From positions 310,001 through 374,000 of the forward strand of contig JAUIBP010000001.1 in NCBI GenBank assembly GCA_030427735.1: a stretch of DNA of 64,000 bases. Direction: 5' to 3'. Position numbers and translations under genes: made by a program. Within the stretch, counting starts at the first letter, position 1. Each line of letters starts with the position of its first letter. The notes beneath the pieces are model-generated. The model saw only the letters and a list, made by a program, of their open reading frames with translations. It searched no databases and was not told the DNA's origin. This DNA is from Bacteroidia bacterium (GTDB lineage: Bacteria > Bacteroidota > Bacteroidia > Flavobacteriales > Flavobacteriaceae). Positions 10,529-60,556 of this stretch are shown in pieces.

Positions 10529-10536
10529 TAGTTTTG
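10529..10536 (+). promoter_or_regulatory. Putative -7 promoter element for the riboswitch transcript
   Basis: TAGTTTTG matches TAnnTTTG. It lies 7 bp before the start of the recognisable riboswitch, where the transcription start would be expected in Bacteroidetes. Confidence 0.6.
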
Positions 10537-10542
10537 CACAGC

Positions 10543-10722
10543 ATTTTGGTTCCTATCCCAATGGATGGATTAAAAGGGAATTGAGTGAAAATCTCAAGCT
10601 GTTCCCGCAACTGTAATCTTAGTTCTGCTTTGCAGAATGCTTGTTATTATACTTCTAAAACACCACTGATTTTTTATAATTGGGAAGGTAAATAGCAAGA
10701 CGAGAGTCAGGAGACCTGCCTA
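10543..10722 (+). ncRNA. Cobalamin (AdoCbl) riboswitch
   Basis: The region starts with a TTTTGGTTCC element, contains the AAGGGAAT...CCCGCAACTGTAATC core with the usual variable hairpin (TTCTGCTTTGCAGAA), and ends with the B12 box GAGTCAGGAGACCTGCC at about 10704-10720. Order and spacing fit the cobalamin riboswitch class. It sits about 50 bp upstream of the TonB receptor start, so it should switch off receptor and lipoprotein synthesis when B12 is plentiful. No second copy is visible upstream of the divergent ABC transporter genes. Confidence 0.93.
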
Positions 10723-10769
10723 ATGTAAATATCAAAATATTTGACTTTCGGGTAAAAGGTCTATAGCGT

Positions 10770-50798: not shown

Positions 50799-52085
50799 TT
50801 ATTTTTCTACTAATTGAATGGTTCTAGCGAAATAGTATATCGCTCCAATACCCAGAGGCACAAACAGTGCAATGGCAATAAATATTGGGGTGTAAGACAC
50901 TTCGGCCACGATAGGCACAATAAAGTTCATGATGATTACCGAAAATACACCTACCATGCCGCCTAAACCGGCTAAAGACCCAACGTTTTTACCGTTAAAC
51001 AAATCGCTAGGTAAGGTTTGTATATTACCGATGGCAAATTGAAACCCAAATAACACCACAAAAACTATGGCTACAAAGCGTTCGGCAGTCGTACCAAACA
51101 GCACGGTGGCTATCAAGCCTAAAAACATAATTAAACCACCAATTAATATGGTTATTTTTCGGCCTTTATCTATAGAATTGGTTTTCGCTATAATTTTACC
51201 CGACACGTAACCGCCTGCAATACTACCTATAGCTGCCCCCACATAAGGTACCCAAGTAAACAGCCCTACTTCTTTAACGTTAAAGCCATACACATCGAAC
51301 AGGTAAATTGGCATCCAGCCCACAAACAGCCACCAAATAGGCTCTAAGAAAAAACGCCCAACAACTATGGCCCACGATTCGCGATACGATAATATTTGTT
51401 TTAAGCTTAAACCTTTAGTATCGTCGGTTGCTTCTCTATCGGCTTGGCTTTGCCCTTCTAGAATGTATTTTCTTTCTTCTTCGGAAATCCACGGATGTTT
51501 TTCAGGCCCTGCTTTTTGAAAAATCAACCACGGAATGATCCATAGCAAACCCATAGTACCTATGCATATAAACGTTGTTTTCCATCCATAGGCTACAAAC
51601 AATGCCGATATTAATAATGGTGCTATTACAGAACCTATTGATGCTCCTGCATTAAATAACCCCTGTGCAATGGCGCGTTCTTTTATAGGAAACCACTCGG
51701 CATTGCTCTTAACGGCTCCTGGCCAGTTCCCTGCCTCGGACAAACCTAGTGTGGTTCTAAAAAAGGCTAGGGATACAAACCCTCTAACAGTAGAATGGAA
51801 TATGGTCGATAAGCTCCAAATACCAATACTAAGTACATAACCTATTTTAGTACCAACCTTATCGAAAAGCTTTCCTGAAAACAGTTGCCCCAACGCATAA
51901 GCCACCATAAATATGTTTAAAATATGCCCGTAATCGCGCTTATCTAAACCTAAGGAGTGCGAGATAGAACCCTCTAAATCTTCACTACCCCACATAATAC
52001 TTAAGGCACTTCTGTCGATGTAATTTATGACTGTTGCCAAAAAAATTAAACCTATAATAAACCACCGTAATCCTTTAATTTTCAT
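50799..52085 (-). CDS. MFS transporter, hexuronate (ExuT/ACS) type
   Basis: Read from the ATG at 52085 the protein has 428 residues and twelve membrane helices. The start MKIKGLRWFIIGLIFLATVINYIDRSALSI is the family's usual N-terminus; the 45 extra codons upstream have no family match and no membrane segment. Landmarks are the RxxLGLSEAGNWPGAVK block and the long central loop. It probably brings alginate-derived uronates across the inner membrane. The ATG lies about 165 bp downstream of motifs shared with the susC leader. Confidence 0.88.
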   Translation of the reverse strand: MKIKGLRWFIIGLIFLATVINYIDRSALSIMWGSEDLEGSISHSLGLDKRDYGHILNIFMVAYALGQLFSGKLFDKVGTKIGYVLSIGIWSLSTIFHSTVRGFVSLAFFRTTLGLSEAGNWPGAVKSNAEWFPIKERAIAQGLFNAGASIGSVIAPLLISALFVAYGWKTTFICIGTMGLLWIIPWLIFQKAGPEKHPWISEEERKYILEGQSQADREATDDTKGLSLKQILSYRESWAIVVGRFFLEPIWWLFVGWMPIYLFDVYGFNVKEVGLFTWVPYVGAAIGSIAGGYVSGKIIAKTNSIDKGRKITILIGGLIMFLGLIATVLFGTTAERFVAIVFVVLFGFQFAIGNIQTLPSDLFNGKNVGSLAGLGGMVGVFSVIIMNFIVPIVAEVSYTPIFIAIALFVPLGIGAIYYFARTIQLVEK

Positions 52086-52247: not shown

Positions 52248-52317
52248 TTTACTTCCCTTCCTTATATGTTATTTTACGTGTTATGAAACTAAAATCGTGC
52301 ACCTTCCAGTTTCATAA
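52248..52317 (-). promoter_or_regulatory. Upstream region of the MFS gene: hairpin and motifs shared with susC
   Basis: The perfect 10-bp inverted repeat TTATGAAACT / AGTTTCATAA (52281-52290 and 52308-52317) encloses CGTGCACCT (52296-52304). Nearer the gene is TTTACTTCCCTTCC (52248-52261). Both CGTGCACCT and TTTACTTCCCTTCC occur again in the susC upstream region. No T-run follows the hairpin, so it is not a good terminator for the regulator gene. Confidence 0.6.
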
Positions 52318-52323
52318 TTGTAT

Positions 52324-53025
52324 TTAAATATTATAGCAATATTGATATAATGCTTTAAAATGTACTTTCATTTTATCTTTTGCCAACTGCGGATCTCCTG
52401 CTTTTATCGCTTCGTAAACCGCCTTGTGCTCATCTATCGCCGATAAGGACAAACTATCGTCGCAAACATGATACTTTTTAAAATTTGTAATTATTTCTGG
52501 CGTAATCTTTAACATGAATGTATTTAATGTACTGTTACCACTAGCATTGGCAATAGCTAGATGAAACAACAAATCTTCCTGTACCGCATCCAAACCTTGT
52601 GACGCTTTTTCTTCGTAAGCATCTAAAGCCGATTTTATATGAATAAGATCTTCTTTTGTACGTCTTAACGCAGCCAATTTTACAATTTTAAGCTCTAACA
52701 GAATACGCGTTTCTACCAACGATTTAAAATCTGGATCTTCCAACCTTAAAATATCAGCAATCATCCCGTTCATGGCAATTACTCCTATATCGGCAACAAA
52801 AGTGCCGCTTTGTGGTATAGACTTTAGCAAGCCGTAAAACTCTAATTTATTAATGGCTTCCCGCACATTACTTCTACTCACCTCAAACTTTTCAGACAAC
52901 ATACGTTCCGATGGCAATTTATCGCCAGGTTCTAAATTTTTTAAATTAATCAACTCACCAATTTTAGCGATGATTTGATTTTGAACCTCTTGATTATCAC
53001 TCTTAATAAGGACTTCTAACTTCAT
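52324..53025 (-). CDS. FadR-subfamily GntR transcription regulator
   Basis: A 233-residue regulator. The winged helix (about 25-80) contains LPSERMLSEKFEVSRSNVREAINKLEFYGLLKSIPQSGTFV; the FCD ligand domain follows (about 88-228) with the metal/ligand residues in DLLFHLAIANASGN, EHKAVYEAI and KVHFKALY. Family members bind sugar acids such as uronates, so it likely senses an alginate monomer (DEH, KDG or KDPG). The palindrome CTGGTTAACCAG lies 24 bp upstream of its ATG and suggests autoregulation. Confidence 0.92.
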   Translation of the reverse strand: MKLEVLIKSDNQEVQNQIIAKIGELINLKNLEPGDKLPSERMLSEKFEVSRSNVREAINKLEFYGLLKSIPQSGTFVADIGVIAMNGMIADILRLEDPDFKSLVETRILLELKIVKLAALRRTKEDLIHIKSALDAYEEKASQGLDAVQEDLLFHLAIANASGNSTLNTFMLKITPEIITNFKKYHVCDDSLSLSAIDEHKAVYEAIKAGDPQLAKDKMKVHFKALYQYCYNI

Positions 53026-53048: not shown

Positions 53049-53060
53049 CTGGTTAACCAG
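53049..53060. promoter_or_regulatory. Candidate operator of the FadR-type regulator
   Basis: CTGGTTAACCAG is a perfect 12-bp palindrome. Three copies of the pattern TGGTTnnCCA occur at 59941-59976, upstream of susC. Confidence 0.7.
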
Positions 53061-56570: not shown

Positions 56571-59500
56571 TTAAAAATCTAAATTTAAACCTAGAGATAT
56601 GGTGCTAAAAACAGGTGAACCACCACGTTGATATCCTAATTGAGTAGGGCTTGTTTTATCTAAAGCCTCTGGGTTCCATCCTGAATAATTATCGGCTGTA
56701 AAATACAATAGGTTTTGACCAGTAGCATACACTCTTAAACCCGATAATTTTAATCTGTCTAACACATCGCTCGGGAAATTATATCCTATGTTTACATTTC
56801 GAAGTGCGATATACGAAGCATCTTGTACCATACTATTGGTAAAATACTTATCTACTAAAAACTCGGTATTGGGTGCTGAATCTAAAATAGTTCTGTTATT
56901 GTTGTGACTGTACAAGTAATGGTCTGCAATGTTTCTAACTTCTGCGCCATGAGACCCCTGGAACATGAACGAAATATCTAAGTTTCCTATTCCGAATTCG
57001 TTGGTAAAACTCCATATTAATTCTGGATAAGGATTACCCAATACGGTTTTATCTTCGTCGTCTAAAACACCATCGCCATTCAAATCCTTTACATATACCA
57101 ATCCGGCTTCTGCACCTACGTGTCTCCATGGTCTGTCGCGATCTTCGAATGCTAATTCTTTATCGACAACATATCCGTAGAATAACGATATAGGTTGCCC
57201 CTCTAAGTTAATCCATTCGGCAGGTCTAGATGGATCTAAACTTGTAATTTGTCCGTCGGAATCTGCAAAATCTACTAAAGTGTTTTCATTGGTAGTCGCA
57301 ATAATGGTTGAGTTCCAATAGAATTTCTCTGAGCTTATATTTTTGGTTCTAATTTCGAATTCCCATCCTTCATTTTTCACTTCACCTAAATTAACAAGAG
57401 CGCCAGAAAAACCAGTAGTTACAGATATAGGGTTGTTTAACAATAACTGGTCGCTGGTACGTTGATACCAATCTACCGAACCTGTAATTCTGTTGTTTAA
57501 AATTCCGAAATCGATACCTGGGTTAATCTCGATTAAACGCTCCCATTTTAATTCTGGATTGGCAATGTTTAAAGGAGAAAAACCAGCAGTAATAGTACCA
57601 TCTACCGAATAACTAGAACCTGAAGCCCCCAACAAGGCTAAACTCGGATAATAATCTACTAAAATATTACCTGTACTTAAATTGGAGGTGCTACCGTTAG
57701 CATCAGGATCAACCGCTCCCGTATTTAAACGGTCGTTACCTGTAACCCCATAACTAGCTCGCAATTTAAGATTGTTAACAAAGCTACTTTCTCTTAAAAA
57801 ATTTTCCTTAGCGATATTCCATCCTATAGAAGCCGCCGGGAAATTACCGTATTTATAATCTGAACCGAATATAGAACTTCCGTCACGTCTCATACTCATA
57901 GATAATAAATACTTACTATCGTATGCATAATTAACTCTGGCAACATAAGAAATACCGCGTTTCTCCCATTGAAAGCCATCAAATTCTGAAATTGCTGTCG
58001 CATTGGTAATTTCTTGTACAACATCGTTGGTATAGCCTGTACCTGTAAAACCAGAGAAGAAATAATTTCTACTCTCTACAGAAACACCTGCAGTTACGCC
58101 AAGATCGTGCTTTCCAAACGATTTATCGTAATTAAAAAAGTTATCGAAAATCATGTAACTTTCTTTTTGCGAAATTTCGGTCATATATGCATCTGTAATA
58201 CTTTCGCGAGCTTGGGTTCCCATATAATCGGTACGCTTGGTATCGTTAAACGAACCCGATAATGTGGTTTTAAATCGTAACCCATCTAGAATTTTATACT
58301 GTCCATAAAAATTACCGTATAATTGGAATTTTTTATCGGCCCTGGTACGCTCTACAATTCTAGCGTAAGGGTTTTGGTTATTACTATTACCAATATTGTT
58401 TAAGATATCATCTATTTCGCCATCGCCATCCAAATCGAAAATGGTAAAGTGGTCTTGTCTTGCATAATCGCCAACTTGTAAATGAGAGAATGCCCCATTA
58501 GGATCGACATACTGTAACGAATGCTCGTCGTGATAAATTGGCAACCATGGCTGATGTCTCGCCACGTTGTGTATATTCTCGGAAAAACGTGTTCTGTCGG
58601 TATACGACGGACTTAAGTTGGCACCGATAGTAAATCTGTCGTTAATATCGCTGTCTACTTTTAGTCGTGCGCCATATTTAGTAAAGTTATCTTTTAACAT
58701 TACCCCTTCGTCATCGGAGTAATTTAAACTTACAACATACTTGGTTTTATCGTTACCCCCTCTAAAGGACAAAGAGTGATTGGTAATCATACCGCTTTCA
58801 AAAAATACATCTTGCCAAGAGCGATCTGTACCTATTTGTAATTGCGCAACGGTATATGGCGATAATACTCCATTTTCTGCCATTTGCTTATCTGCCCATT
58901 CTTGGGTGGTAAACCCATAGTCATCGCTTTTACGCGGCGTTTTCATACCCGTGTACATGCTATAGTTTATTCTGGTTTTACCAGCTACACCAGATTTCAT
59001 GGTAATCATTATAATACCATTAGATCCTTTAGACCCATAAATAGAAGATGAAGCGGCATCCTTCAATATTTCAAAAGACTCTACATCGTTCATACTTAAA
59101 GATCCTAAGAACGAAGAATCTACAATAATACCATCTACAACGATTAAAGGTGTAGAATCGCCAGCCATAGAACCAACCCCTCTAATGGTAATAGAAGGTG
59201 CTGCACCAGCCTCGGCATCGGTGGCCTGAATATTAACCCCAGATACTTGCCCTACCAAAGCATCGTCTACCCTTGGTACTGCAATTTGATCTAGTTTTTC
59301 GTTTTCTACTTTAGAAATTGCTCCTGTTAAATGTGATTTTTTCTGAGTTCCGTAACCGACAACAACAACTTCGTCTAGCTTACTTACATCTTCTTGTAAA
59401 ACCACGTTAATAGTTTTGGTTGAAGATACTGTAACTAACTGTGTTACAAAACCAATGTAGGAAAACTGTAAGATTTCCCCACTTTCTACATTAATAGAAT

Positions 59501-59678
59501 AATTACCATCAAAATCTGTAGTTGTACCCCGCGTAGTACCTACCACCAAGACATTAACACCAGGAATTGGTTGTTCGTCTGTACCAGACGTTACAAGTCC
59601 TGTAACGACATCTTGCGCAAACATGGCTGTATTAAGCAACAAGATGACATACAATACTAATTGTTTTTTCAAATTCAT
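56571..59678 (-). CDS. susC: SusC-family TonB-dependent transporter
   Basis: A 1035-residue outer-membrane transporter. Signal peptide, CarboxypepD_reg domain (about 25-100, GLVTSGTDEQPIPGVNVLVVGTTRGTTTDFDGNYSI), TonB box region LDEVVVVGYGTQKKSHLTGAIS, plug domain (GVNIQATDAEAGAAPSITIRGVGSM ... LVVDGIIVDSSFL ... SIYGSKGSNGIIMITMKSG) and a large barrel ending FSTISLGLNLDF. It imports alginate oligosaccharides with SusD. The start codon follows a long leader with conserved motifs. Confidence 0.96.
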   Translation of the reverse strand: MNLKKQLVLYVILLLNTAMFAQDVVTGLVTSGTDEQPIPGVNVLVVGTTRGTTTDFDGNYSINVESGEILQFSYIGFVTQLVTVSSTKTINVVLQEDVSKLDEVVVVGYGTQKKSHLTGAISKVENEKLDQIAVPRVDDALVGQVSGVNIQATDAEAGAAPSITIRGVGSMAGDSTPLIVVDGIIVDSSFLGSLSMNDVESFEILKDAASSSIYGSKGSNGIIMITMKSGVAGKTRINYSMYTGMKTPRKSDDYGFTTQEWADKQMAENGVLSPYTVAQLQIGTDRSWQDVFFESGMITNHSLSFRGGNDKTKYVVSLNYSDDEGVMLKDNFTKYGARLKVDSDINDRFTIGANLSPSYTDRTRFSENIHNVARHQPWLPIYHDEHSLQYVDPNGAFSHLQVGDYARQDHFTIFDLDGDGEIDDILNNIGNSNNQNPYARIVERTRADKKFQLYGNFYGQYKILDGLRFKTTLSGSFNDTKRTDYMGTQARESITDAYMTEISQKESYMIFDNFFNYDKSFGKHDLGVTAGVSVESRNYFFSGFTGTGYTNDVVQEITNATAISEFDGFQWEKRGISYVARVNYAYDSKYLLSMSMRRDGSSIFGSDYKYGNFPAASIGWNIAKENFLRESSFVNNLKLRASYGVTGNDRLNTGAVDPDANGSTSNLSTGNILVDYYPSLALLGASGSSYSVDGTITAGFSPLNIANPELKWERLIEINPGIDFGILNNRITGSVDWYQRTSDQLLLNNPISVTTGFSGALVNLGEVKNEGWEFEIRTKNISSEKFYWNSTIIATTNENTLVDFADSDGQITSLDPSRPAEWINLEGQPISLFYGYVVDKELAFEDRDRPWRHVGAEAGLVYVKDLNGDGVLDDEDKTVLGNPYPELIWSFTNEFGIGNLDISFMFQGSHGAEVRNIADHYLYSHNNNRTILDSAPNTEFLVDKYFTNSMVQDASYIALRNVNIGYNFPSDVLDRLKLSGLRVYATGQNLLYFTADNYSGWNPEALDKTSPTQLGYQRGGSPVFSTISLGLNLDF

Positions 59679-59842
59679 TTGTTTGTTGTTGTTTTAATAA
59701 TAAATAGTTAGCTCTACGATTAGTTTAAAAACAAAAACTTGCATACTTAAAATAACATGAACCTTATAAAAACGCGTTGCTGTATTTAACATGAATTATT
59801 TTTCATATTTTTGCAAAGCATGCATTATTAAAGGCATGTTAT

Positions 59843-59896
59843 TTTACTTCCCTTCCACAAGAAGTATGTATTAAGGATAGGCGTGCACCTATCCTT
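59843..59896 (-). promoter_or_regulatory. susC leader motifs shared with the MFS gene
   Basis: AAGGATAGG / CCTATCCTT form a hairpin around GTGCAC (59873-59896), and TTTACTTCCCTTCC (59843-59856) follows 16 bp closer to the gene. On the + strand the hairpin precedes a T-run, but there is no + strand transcript to end, so a regulatory use is more likely than termination. Confidence 0.6.
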
Positions 59897-59939
59897 TTTT
59901 TATATCTGTTTTTTTCAAAATGAGAACTAATCAAACTTT

Positions 59940-59977
59940 TTGGTTATCCAAATTGGTTTCCCAATCTGGTTTACCAA
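59940..59977. promoter_or_regulatory. Three tandem operator-like palindromes upstream of susC
   Basis: TGGTTATCCA (59941), TGGTTTCCCA (59954) and TGGTTTACCA (59967) start exactly 13 bp apart. Each fits TGGTTnnCCA, the pattern of the perfect palindrome in front of the FadR-type gene. This is a strong candidate binding array for that regulator. Confidence 0.75.
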
Positions 59978-60019
59978 ATATATATTAATATATTGTTAAA
60001 AAAAAATTATTTGATAAAA

Positions 60020-60060
60020 AAATAGTGCTTTTTATTTGAAATTCTTAAAAAGCACTATTT
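60020..60060 (-). terminator. Terminator of the PL6-PL17-kdgF transcript
   Basis: On the minus strand AAATAGTGCTTTTTA pairs perfectly with TAAAAAGCACTATTT, followed by a T-run. It lies 116 bp after the kdgF stop and separates this operon from susC. Confidence 0.88.
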
Positions 60061-60175
60061 GATTTGTAATTATTCGAAAGTTTAGGCTTAATCGCTTACA
60101 ATACAACCATTACTATTACTAGCAATAATGGGTATCTAAAATTATTTAAAAGCTCTACTTTCTTATGTTAGTAAC

Positions 60176-60556
60176 TTATTTAGAATCTTTATCTCCAAAA
60201 TAAGACACACCATTGCCACTTAAAAAATCTTCTCTAACAGGGCTAAATGTATCTATTAACATTCCTTCTTCTAAACAAACAGCGCTGTGTAGTAAATTTG
60301 GTTCTATATAAACGCCATCTCCTGCTTCTACAATTTGCTTAACGCCATCAATTTCAAATTCAAATTTACCCGAAACACAATACGTAGCTTGCGTATGAAA
60401 ATGCTGATGCGGTGATCCTAAAGCACCCTTTTCAAACTTCACTTTTACCATCATAATTTGGTTATCATAACCCAAGAATTTTCTAGATACTCCTCCGCCT
60501 AGTTCTTCCCATTCCAAATCTTTACTAATGATGTATTTTTTACTAAATCGATCCAT
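60176..60556 (-). CDS. kdgF: KdgF-type cupin (unsaturated uronate linearisation)
   Basis: A 126-residue single-domain cupin. Metal ligands are expected in PHQHFHTQATYCVSGKFEFEI and in the later EPNLLHSAV. KdgF proteins convert the cyclic unsaturated monouronates made by alginate and pectin lyases to the open-chain 4-deoxy ketouronate, a step otherwise slow and spontaneous. It is 25 bp after the PL17 gene and ends the operon. Confidence 0.92.
   Translation of the reverse strand: MDRFSKKYIISKDLEWEELGGGVSRKFLGYDNQIMMVKVKFEKGALGSPHQHFHTQATYCVSGKFEFEIDGVKQIVEAGDGVYIEPNLLHSAVCLEEGMLIDTFSPVREDFLSGNGVSYFGDKDSK

Follow-up and report, generated by a model that had tools for sequence, protein, structure and literature searches.

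AusR-type operator arrays and a candidate antisense RNA at the susC gene of a flavobacterial alginate locus

We consider it probable that the triple palindrome upstream of susC in a flavobacterial alginate locus is an AusR-type promoter-operator and that an adjoining antisense RNA pairs with the susC leader in cis and with a site between gntR and an MFS transporter gene in trans, a proposal that rests on sequence comparison. It goes beyond an earlier note on the same DNA in placing the array on the susC promoter, in finding the 13-bp step family-wide and in adding the adjoining antisense RNA candidate. Coordinates refer to the window, i.e., the whole stretch of 64,000 nucleotides that was analyzed.

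Results

Palindromes in the window and the source genome

Three palindromes, TGGTTATCCA, TGGTTTCCCA and TGGTTTACCA, start on the plus strand at 59941, 59954 and 59967, exactly where the earlier note had located them. Read in the direction of susC, which encodes a SusC/RagA TonB-linked receptor (56571-59678, minus strand), they are AusR-type operator 1 (TGGTAAACCA, 59967-59976), operator 2 (TGGGAAACCA, 59954-59963) and operator 3 (TGGATAACCA, 59941-59950), all on the minus strand and 263-298 bp from the susC ATG. A single perfect palindrome, CTGGTTAACCAG, had been reported at 53049-53060 upstream of gntR and was borne out (minus strand); the gap to the ATG (53025, minus strand) measures 23 bases, orthologues have an equivalent site, and autoregulation of gntR may be expected from it. 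The same note had seen no such site before the MFS transporter gene (50799-52085, minus strand, start codon at 52085 picked by eye) or kdgK, and this absence holds in the window even when one mismatch is allowed. With perfect palindromes scored on both strands, TGGTTNNCCA occurs 8 times in the window compared with 1.96 expected, a count that none of 100 shuffles reached.

In the source genome (3.64 Mb) the tandem pattern TGGTTNNCCA-N3-TGGTTNNCCA is present eight times, while the pattern read backwards is absent. These eight tandem pairs make up six arrays, each of which precedes an alginate gene or a gene for a secreted protein. Array 1 (59941-59976) lies before susC1; another stands 20 bp before the gene continuing the last open frame of the window (PF16318), which we take to be PL6; a triple array is found ~280 bp before the second susC; one array lies 12 bp before a lyase gene, presumably PL7-like; and the remaining two, at other places in the genome, each precede a secreted-protein gene by 40-50 bp, one of these genes being presumably PL6-like. 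At these last two places, a small secreted protein (L013, 9034-10048) and a large, apparently PL6-like one (L014, 9411-12076) each have a double operator upstream, to which a -7 box is fused. They may be two distant members of the regulon, and the small protein is a candidate new alginate-related protein. The second susC belongs to a region just outside the window (L011, 10099-15575, G000:C4) with a further susC/susD pair, a GntR/FCD-like paralogue and, near by, the PL7-like lyase gene with its double site. The source genome thus has two such regulators, which are 68% alike; no operator was found in the 171 bp preceding the second one. As a separate observation, the window contains a cobalamin riboswitch at 10530-10737 on the plus strand (RF00174, 97.9 bits).

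The regulator and its operators across the family

The gene upstream of which the single palindrome lies encodes a GntR/FCD regulator of the AusR type (52324-53025, minus strand; PF00392, 1.1e-18; PF07729, 6.8e-25) and is part of an alginate polysaccharide utilization locus (PUL) together with susCD and alginate lyase genes. Among the 397 genomes drawn from the family, tandem pairs were present in 104 and the backward control in a single one, and the regulator was detected at E<=1e-50 in 103. Arrays occurred in 103/103 genomes with the regulator and in 1/294 without it (Fisher 4.5e-96, uncorrected for kinship, such that P values are overstated because related genomes are not independent). In a phylum-wide draw the pair was found in 10/257 genomes, nine of 27 inside the family and one of 230 outside (G544), the latter at chance level because the backward control there yields two genomes.

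The exceptional genome, G154, carries a tandem pair (L015, G154:C1:406020-406042) while lacking the regulator at E<=1e-50, and no closed, ATG-started open frame of at least 100 amino acids is listed in the surrounding 3 kb. An array standing by itself in this way would suggest that something else binds the arrays than the GntR protein encoded near by. We regard this as very improbable in view of the co-occurrence just described, and the AusR precedent likewise speaks against it, as does the agreement of the TGGT/ACCA halves with the FadR-subfamily consensus TKGT/ACMA given in the passages of PMC4494728.

For closer comparison, 80 loci around the regulator gene were used, the best 80 of 98, which comprise 1.53 Mb and 491 relaxed sites. 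A site is present within 60 bp of the gntR ATG in 54 of these orthologous loci, in 52 of them as a single copy. A scan of related loci had been suggested in the earlier note, and it revealed that the palindromes upstream of both susC and gntR are kept across orthologues. Its claim that the regulator controls itself and susC through the palindromes is therefore supported, if unproven, by the co-occurrence, by the sites at gntR and also by the published AusR model. Altogether, it is supported that an AusR-type GntR/FCD repressor of alginate use has its operators in the triple array and the single palindrome, and judging from their sequence these operators are of the kind already described for AusR in a related marine bacterium.

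Neighbouring sites keep a strict register. Site pairs less than 60 bp apart in the 80 loci were spaced by 13 bp in 148 cases, by 26 bp in 47 and by 39 bp in four, and no pair within 60 bp fell outside the 13-bp register; a control with reversed halves gave one pair, at 30 bp. The exact 13-bp period first noted in the window is thus confirmed and, with 148 neighbouring pairs, holds family-wide. By simple arithmetic at 10.5 bp per turn, each step rotates the next site by ~86 degrees. We infer that such a rigid step favours dimers packed side by side over competing binding, the other possibility raised in the earlier note.

The number of sites differs between target genes. We counted 168 intergenic clusters out of 342 in all; clusters inside genes, without a nearby gene start or with a best score below 11 were excluded, which favours strong single sites. 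The 69 susC clusters comprised 37 triple, 24 double, three quadruple and five single ones. At gntR, 54 of 61 clusters were single, at a median of 22 bp before the ATG, and 27 of the 35 clusters at lyase and other genes were double. In three Polaribacter loci (L058, L098 and L099) the MFS gene itself is preceded, at 18-30 bp, by a double AusR-type site. The variant TGGTTAACCA was found in 49/65 single sites as opposed to 40/254 array members, a difference of which only part can be real because weak members were kept in arrays while weak single sites were filtered out. Weaker array members would fit neighbours helping each other.

Fusion of the array with the susC promoter

TAnnTTTG is the Bacteroidetes -7 box according to the passages of PMC9723704 and PMC7366714, and the former places it at -12 to -5. 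Such a box, TATATTTG, is present at 59975-59982 (minus strand) and is fused to operator 1, with which it has the letters TG in common. Upstream of it, a T-run (59998-60006, minus strand) occupies the place of the conserved TT of the -33 element in the family logo. The fusion is a general property of arrays: TAnnTTTG exactly 6 bp before the first operator, with TG in common, was detected in 90/103 arrays compared with 2/65 single sites. Sorted by gene, it occurred in 59/69 susC clusters, 24/38 others and 9/61 gntR clusters, the last including all seven gntR arrays. At susC, 36/37 triples, 3/3 quadruples and 20/24 doubles had the fused box, and none of the five singles did. The reversed -7 motif did not occur at the fusion place in any of the 168 clusters. 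The family logo reads TATATTTGG with TT ~22 bp before TA, and all six arrays of the source genome read TATATTTGG or TAAGTTTGG by eye. At single gntR sites no -7 box was evident in the logo or in the counts. A susC promoter downstream of the array was considered and rejected: no good sigma box was seen there by eye, and the box overlaps the array itself.

Fusion of operator 1 to the -7 box places the array on the susC start. Transcription is expected to begin near 59970, inside the array, which results in a susC leader of ~290 nt up to the ATG at 59678. We infer that susC is repressed by blocking of the polymerase.

A candidate antisense RNA opposite the susC leader

Between the array and susC, the plus strand carries a candidate antisense -7 box, TATTTTTG (59806-59813), followed by a candidate RNA of ~84 nt opposite the susC leader (59818-59901; match of covariance model R1 at 59841-59903). 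Two hairpins are predicted in it. P2 (59845-59866, TACTTC...GAAGTA) has a C-rich loop, which together with the 5' arm is complementary to a purine box at 52249-52261. P1 with the loop CGTGCA (59882-59887) and a subsequent run of seven T (59895-59901) spans 59873-59901 and would be the terminator of the candidate RNA. Between this terminator-like end and the array there are 39 bp. A -33 element cannot be seen at the antisense promoter, which counts against an RNA on this strand.

A regular expression found the conserved block in 38 of 64 leaders, the window included, in a sample that had been selected as susC leaders. A covariance model built from 37 of these 38 rows (L096 omitted) added L069, L105 and L111 and missed L096. 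Two splits of the loci are therefore used below: the first, by regular expression, has 38 RNA-plus loci versus 24, with L069 and L111 still on the minus side, and the second, by the model, has 39 RNA-plus named loci (window excluded), 24 RNA-minus and seven unclassified ones. Opposite to susC, the consensus reads TTACTTCCCTCCAAAGAAGTAA, then AAAAGGATAGGCGTGCACCTGTCCTTTTTTT. In the two hairpins 97.2% of cells are paired, and 16 cells with double changes were counted compared with 3.7 after shuffling (0/500). The letters of the loops are conserved as well as those of the stems.

The RNA was assigned to the strand opposite to susC because four features agree: the consensus fold of the antisense strand is more stable (-17.45 versus -10.5 for the sense strand, strands aligned separately), wobble cells number 35 on the antisense and five on the sense strand, the median T-run is seven versus four, and TAnnTTTG occurs 27-45 nt upstream of the first hairpin in 28/38 leaders, with six scattered matches for the reversed motif. 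Single-sequence fold energy gives the assignment no backing: it is equal between the strands (-19.67 antisense, -19.99 sense, antisense lower in 22/37), and it was rejected as a strand test since it does not discriminate. The predicted RNA measures 79-101 nt in the 28 leaders with a -7 box. The array follows on its 3' side, ~9-84 bp past the end, in 29 of 30 fetched loci and is on the 5' side in none; in the remaining one, L141, the sequence stops too early to judge.

The distribution of the element follows that of the regulator. At E<=1e-5 the model matched 82 places in 79 genomes, i.e., in 79/103 genomes with the regulator and in 0/294 others. At E<=0.01, 135/397 genomes had a match, some of them without regulator (best such match seen 4.3e-5, G117). 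The 24 regulator genomes lacking the RNA at E<=1e-5 include both other genomes of the same genus, and in the source genome itself the element is absent, by eye, from the leader of susC2. Leaving aside 16 minus-strand loci, which are outside the count, the RNA lies opposite the susC leader in 14/14 judged loci of further genomes. One exception is G102, where the leader that carries it precedes gntR and not susC. In the distant genomes G094 and G296 weak matches (6.7e-6 and 2.5e-6) are located between gntR and a susC, again opposite the susC leader; neither loop motif was found in these two. The leader element has no match at gathering score in Rfam 15, the lowest E-value in 59600-60180 being 0.32, and no published flavobacterial alginate antisense RNA was recognised among the matches listed from open-licence PMC papers. 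It looks as though the susC leader holds a conserved candidate antisense RNA gene that is apparently undescribed.

The element could also be a bidirectional terminator or a leftover structure devoid of any regulatory role, next to a plain set of AusR operators. The operators alone do account fully for the palindromes as first noted, the leader hairpin with its A- and T-runs resembles a terminator, and antisense transcription is described in PMC9723704 and PMC7366714, as far as their passages go, as often pervasive and possibly functionless. We nevertheless judge this explanation unlikely. That the loop letters are kept along with the stems counts against a plain terminator, and so do the loop and box found again, co-varying and tracking the presence of the RNA, between gntR and the MFS gene.

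A second site between gntR and the MFS transporter gene

Just past the gntR stop codon, a hairpin is predicted at 52280-52317 (minus strand). Its loop, UGCACG (52296-52301), is the proposed target of a kissing-loop interaction with the loop CGUGCA of the candidate RNA. Further towards the MFS gene follows the purine box GGAAGGGAAGTAA (52249-52261, minus strand), and here the complementary patch would be CUUCCCUCC/GGAGGGAAG. This 13-mer has exactly two copies in the genome, one in the susC leader and one in the gntR-MFS gap. With one mismatch, five genome matches stand against four for the backward control.

Similarity to the RNA core is concentrated in the MFS upstream regions. A stretch of at least 11 nt in common with the RNA core was present in 15/38 MFS upstream regions, as against 1% of shuffles. 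Elsewhere, such a stretch was found in none of the 27-38 upstream regions available for gntR, SusD, SDR, PL7 and KdpgA each, and in 1/28 for KdgK and 1/15 for PKD. When RNA and MFS regions were paired across loci, 24% of the pairs reached it. TGCAC occurs in the MFS upstream regions of 31/38 loci with the RNA and 0/24 without it. Under the model split, loop and box together were found in 30/39 RNA-plus, 0/24 RNA-minus and 0/7 unclassified loci, a count in which L050 was scored from a wrong MFS start; with the corrected start, L050 shows the hairpin. This test is a loose one, and applied before other genes of RNA-plus loci it gave SusD 0/32, KdgK 0/30, gntR 1/39, SDR 5/39, KdpgA 5/29 and PL7 6/31. 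In G102, the RNA of which lies in a different leader, loop and box are nonetheless present behind the gntR stop codon.

The stems of the gntR-stop hairpin are very variable. Across 34 segments chosen for T[GA]CAC, 98 double-change cells were counted compared with 31 after shuffling, and the covariation score was 0.611 versus 0.230; the identity of the loops in this set is by construction, as T[GA]CAC was the criterion of selection. Of 33 predicted folds, 29 leave the loop unpaired. Loops also agree within loci: the loop hexamer of the MFS hairpin equals that of the susC leader of its own locus in 30/33 cases, compared with a permuted mean of 20.3 (0/20000). Matched variants are TGCACA (L054, L089, L090 and L107) and TACACG (L061). 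L056 breaks the match, and L096 and L115, which differ or are gapped, have no clean match. Duplexes of RNA and MFS upstream region are predicted to average -35.8 kcal/mol, compared with -21.7 to -28.8 for four other upstream regions, -20.8 for shuffled sequences and -31.7 for the MFS regions of other loci. They cover the box in 35/37 and the loop in 34/37 cases, in antiparallel order.

Loop and box are, however, common to both sense leaders and stand there in identical order. The UGCACG-loop hairpin and the GGAGGG box of the susC and MFS leaders could thus form a sense-strand element that is read by a common third factor, for example an RNA-binding protein, a riboswitch-like ligand or another RNA. 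The MFS hairpin is indeed stabler on the sense strand in 25/33 cases, a comparison that leans to sense because the hairpins were partly picked for (sense-strand) fold energy, and single-sequence energies of the susC element show no antisense preference. Weighing against such an element are the wobble cells (35 antisense versus five), the longer antisense T-run and the antisense -7 box in 28/38 leaders. Moreover, base pairing accounts directly for co-changes within a locus, for example TACACG in the two leaders of L061, while a third factor would have to change too. We therefore see a sense-strand element as a doubtful alternative, albeit a somewhat less unlikely one than the terminator. As for pairing by an antisense RNA, we give about even chances to its fullest form: an undescribed flavobacterial sRNA that has susC as its cis target and gntR-MFS as its trans target, pairs through the kissing loop CGUGCA/UGCACG and the purine patch, and is titrated by the susC leader, such that both steps of uptake are switched jointly.

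It was also considered that genomes lacking the RNA compensate by an AusR site before the MFS gene. This is not established, as such sites were seen in 1/24 RNA-minus, 2/7 unclassified and 0/39 RNA-plus loci. L099, the only one of the three loci with a double site before MFS that can be judged, has a susC leader without the antisense RNA.

Discussion

A model for the regulation of alginate uptake would read as follows. Without alginate, dimers of the AusR-type repressor would lie side by side on the array, one per palindrome, and block the polymerase at susC, while the single palindrome before gntR would provide autoregulation. Through the six arrays, common control would extend to two susC genes, to lyase-like genes and to one secreted protein. 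Under the same conditions the antisense promoter, which is free of operators, would produce an RNA of ~80-100 nt that pairs in cis with leaky susC leader transcripts and in trans, via its hairpin loop and the purine box, with the gntR-MFS transcript. Pairing would hold down expression of MFS or gntR; stabilisation is the alternative direction. Upon induction, an alginate breakdown product would release the repressor dimers from the array, the fully complementary susC leader mRNA would soak up the RNA and the gntR-MFS transcript would be freed. Uptake across the outer and the inner membrane could thus be switched together, even though hardly any of the loci examined has an AusR site before the MFS gene.

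It can be seen from the operators how an entire alginate regulon is able to come under a single repressor in one of the major groups of marine algae degraders. Their rigid 13-bp register also opens the cooperative geometry to direct tests. If the antisense RNA is real, antisense control of PULs extends from gut Bacteroides to marine Flavobacteriaceae, and a base-pairing link would connect an outer-membrane importer with the transcript for the regulator and an inner-membrane importer. The natural co-variation of the loops already suggests which loop changes would be informative.

The operators of AusR in Zobellia galactanivorans were reportedly described by Dudek et al. in 2020, and we take AusR to have an FCD domain; the PMC passages name only the GntR family. 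There, AusR is described as a GntR repressor of alginate genes that acts via single, double or triple operator copies (PMC7874173), is prevented by oligosaccharide effectors from occupying its targets (PMC8286568) and is duplicated in some Zobellia (PMC8073546). By these descriptions the system analyzed here, with a GntR-family regulator within an alginate PUL and promoters that have one, two or three operator copies, can be set beside AusR, and its regulator is likened to AusR, the binding of which is prevented by alginate breakdown products.

The array also resembles the operator of NanR in Escherichia coli, a GntR-type repressor of which, in the passages of PMC8012715, three dimers bind side by side to (GGTATA)3, longer spacers weaken binding and cooperativity requires an N-terminal extension of 32 residues. 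Both are GntR-type repressors with a three-repeat operator, but the NanR repeats read GGTATA whereas the regulator here faces palindromes at 13 bp. A NanR-like N-terminal extension is unsupported; the GntR domain match starts at residue 16, and no position among residues 2-18 is conserved in 90% of 82 sequences.

Two groups of Bacteroides RNAs invite comparison with the candidate RNA. B. thetaiotaomicron has 14 paralogous FopS sRNAs, the 5' seed of which is single-stranded; according to PMC11697453 they repress PULs by base pairing close to where the first mRNA of the PUL, typically that of susC, begins. Unlike FopS, the candidate RNA occurs almost always as one copy, with 82 places in 79 genomes, and would pair through its loops. 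Cis-antisense RNAs of the DonS type were reportedly described by Cao et al. in 2016. In Bacteroides PULs these RNAs, according to the passages of PMC7366714, are 78-128 nt long, divergent to susC homologues and negative for them. A predicted RNA of 79-101 nt opposite the susC leader is alike by description, with no homology implied. It differs from DonS in belonging to another bacterial group and in having a second conserved complementary site in the gntR-MFS gap, which suggests a target in trans. We propose that the candidate is a DonS-like antisense RNA with a trans target; if expressed, an RNA with such a co-varying second site would be a new form of antisense control of PULs.
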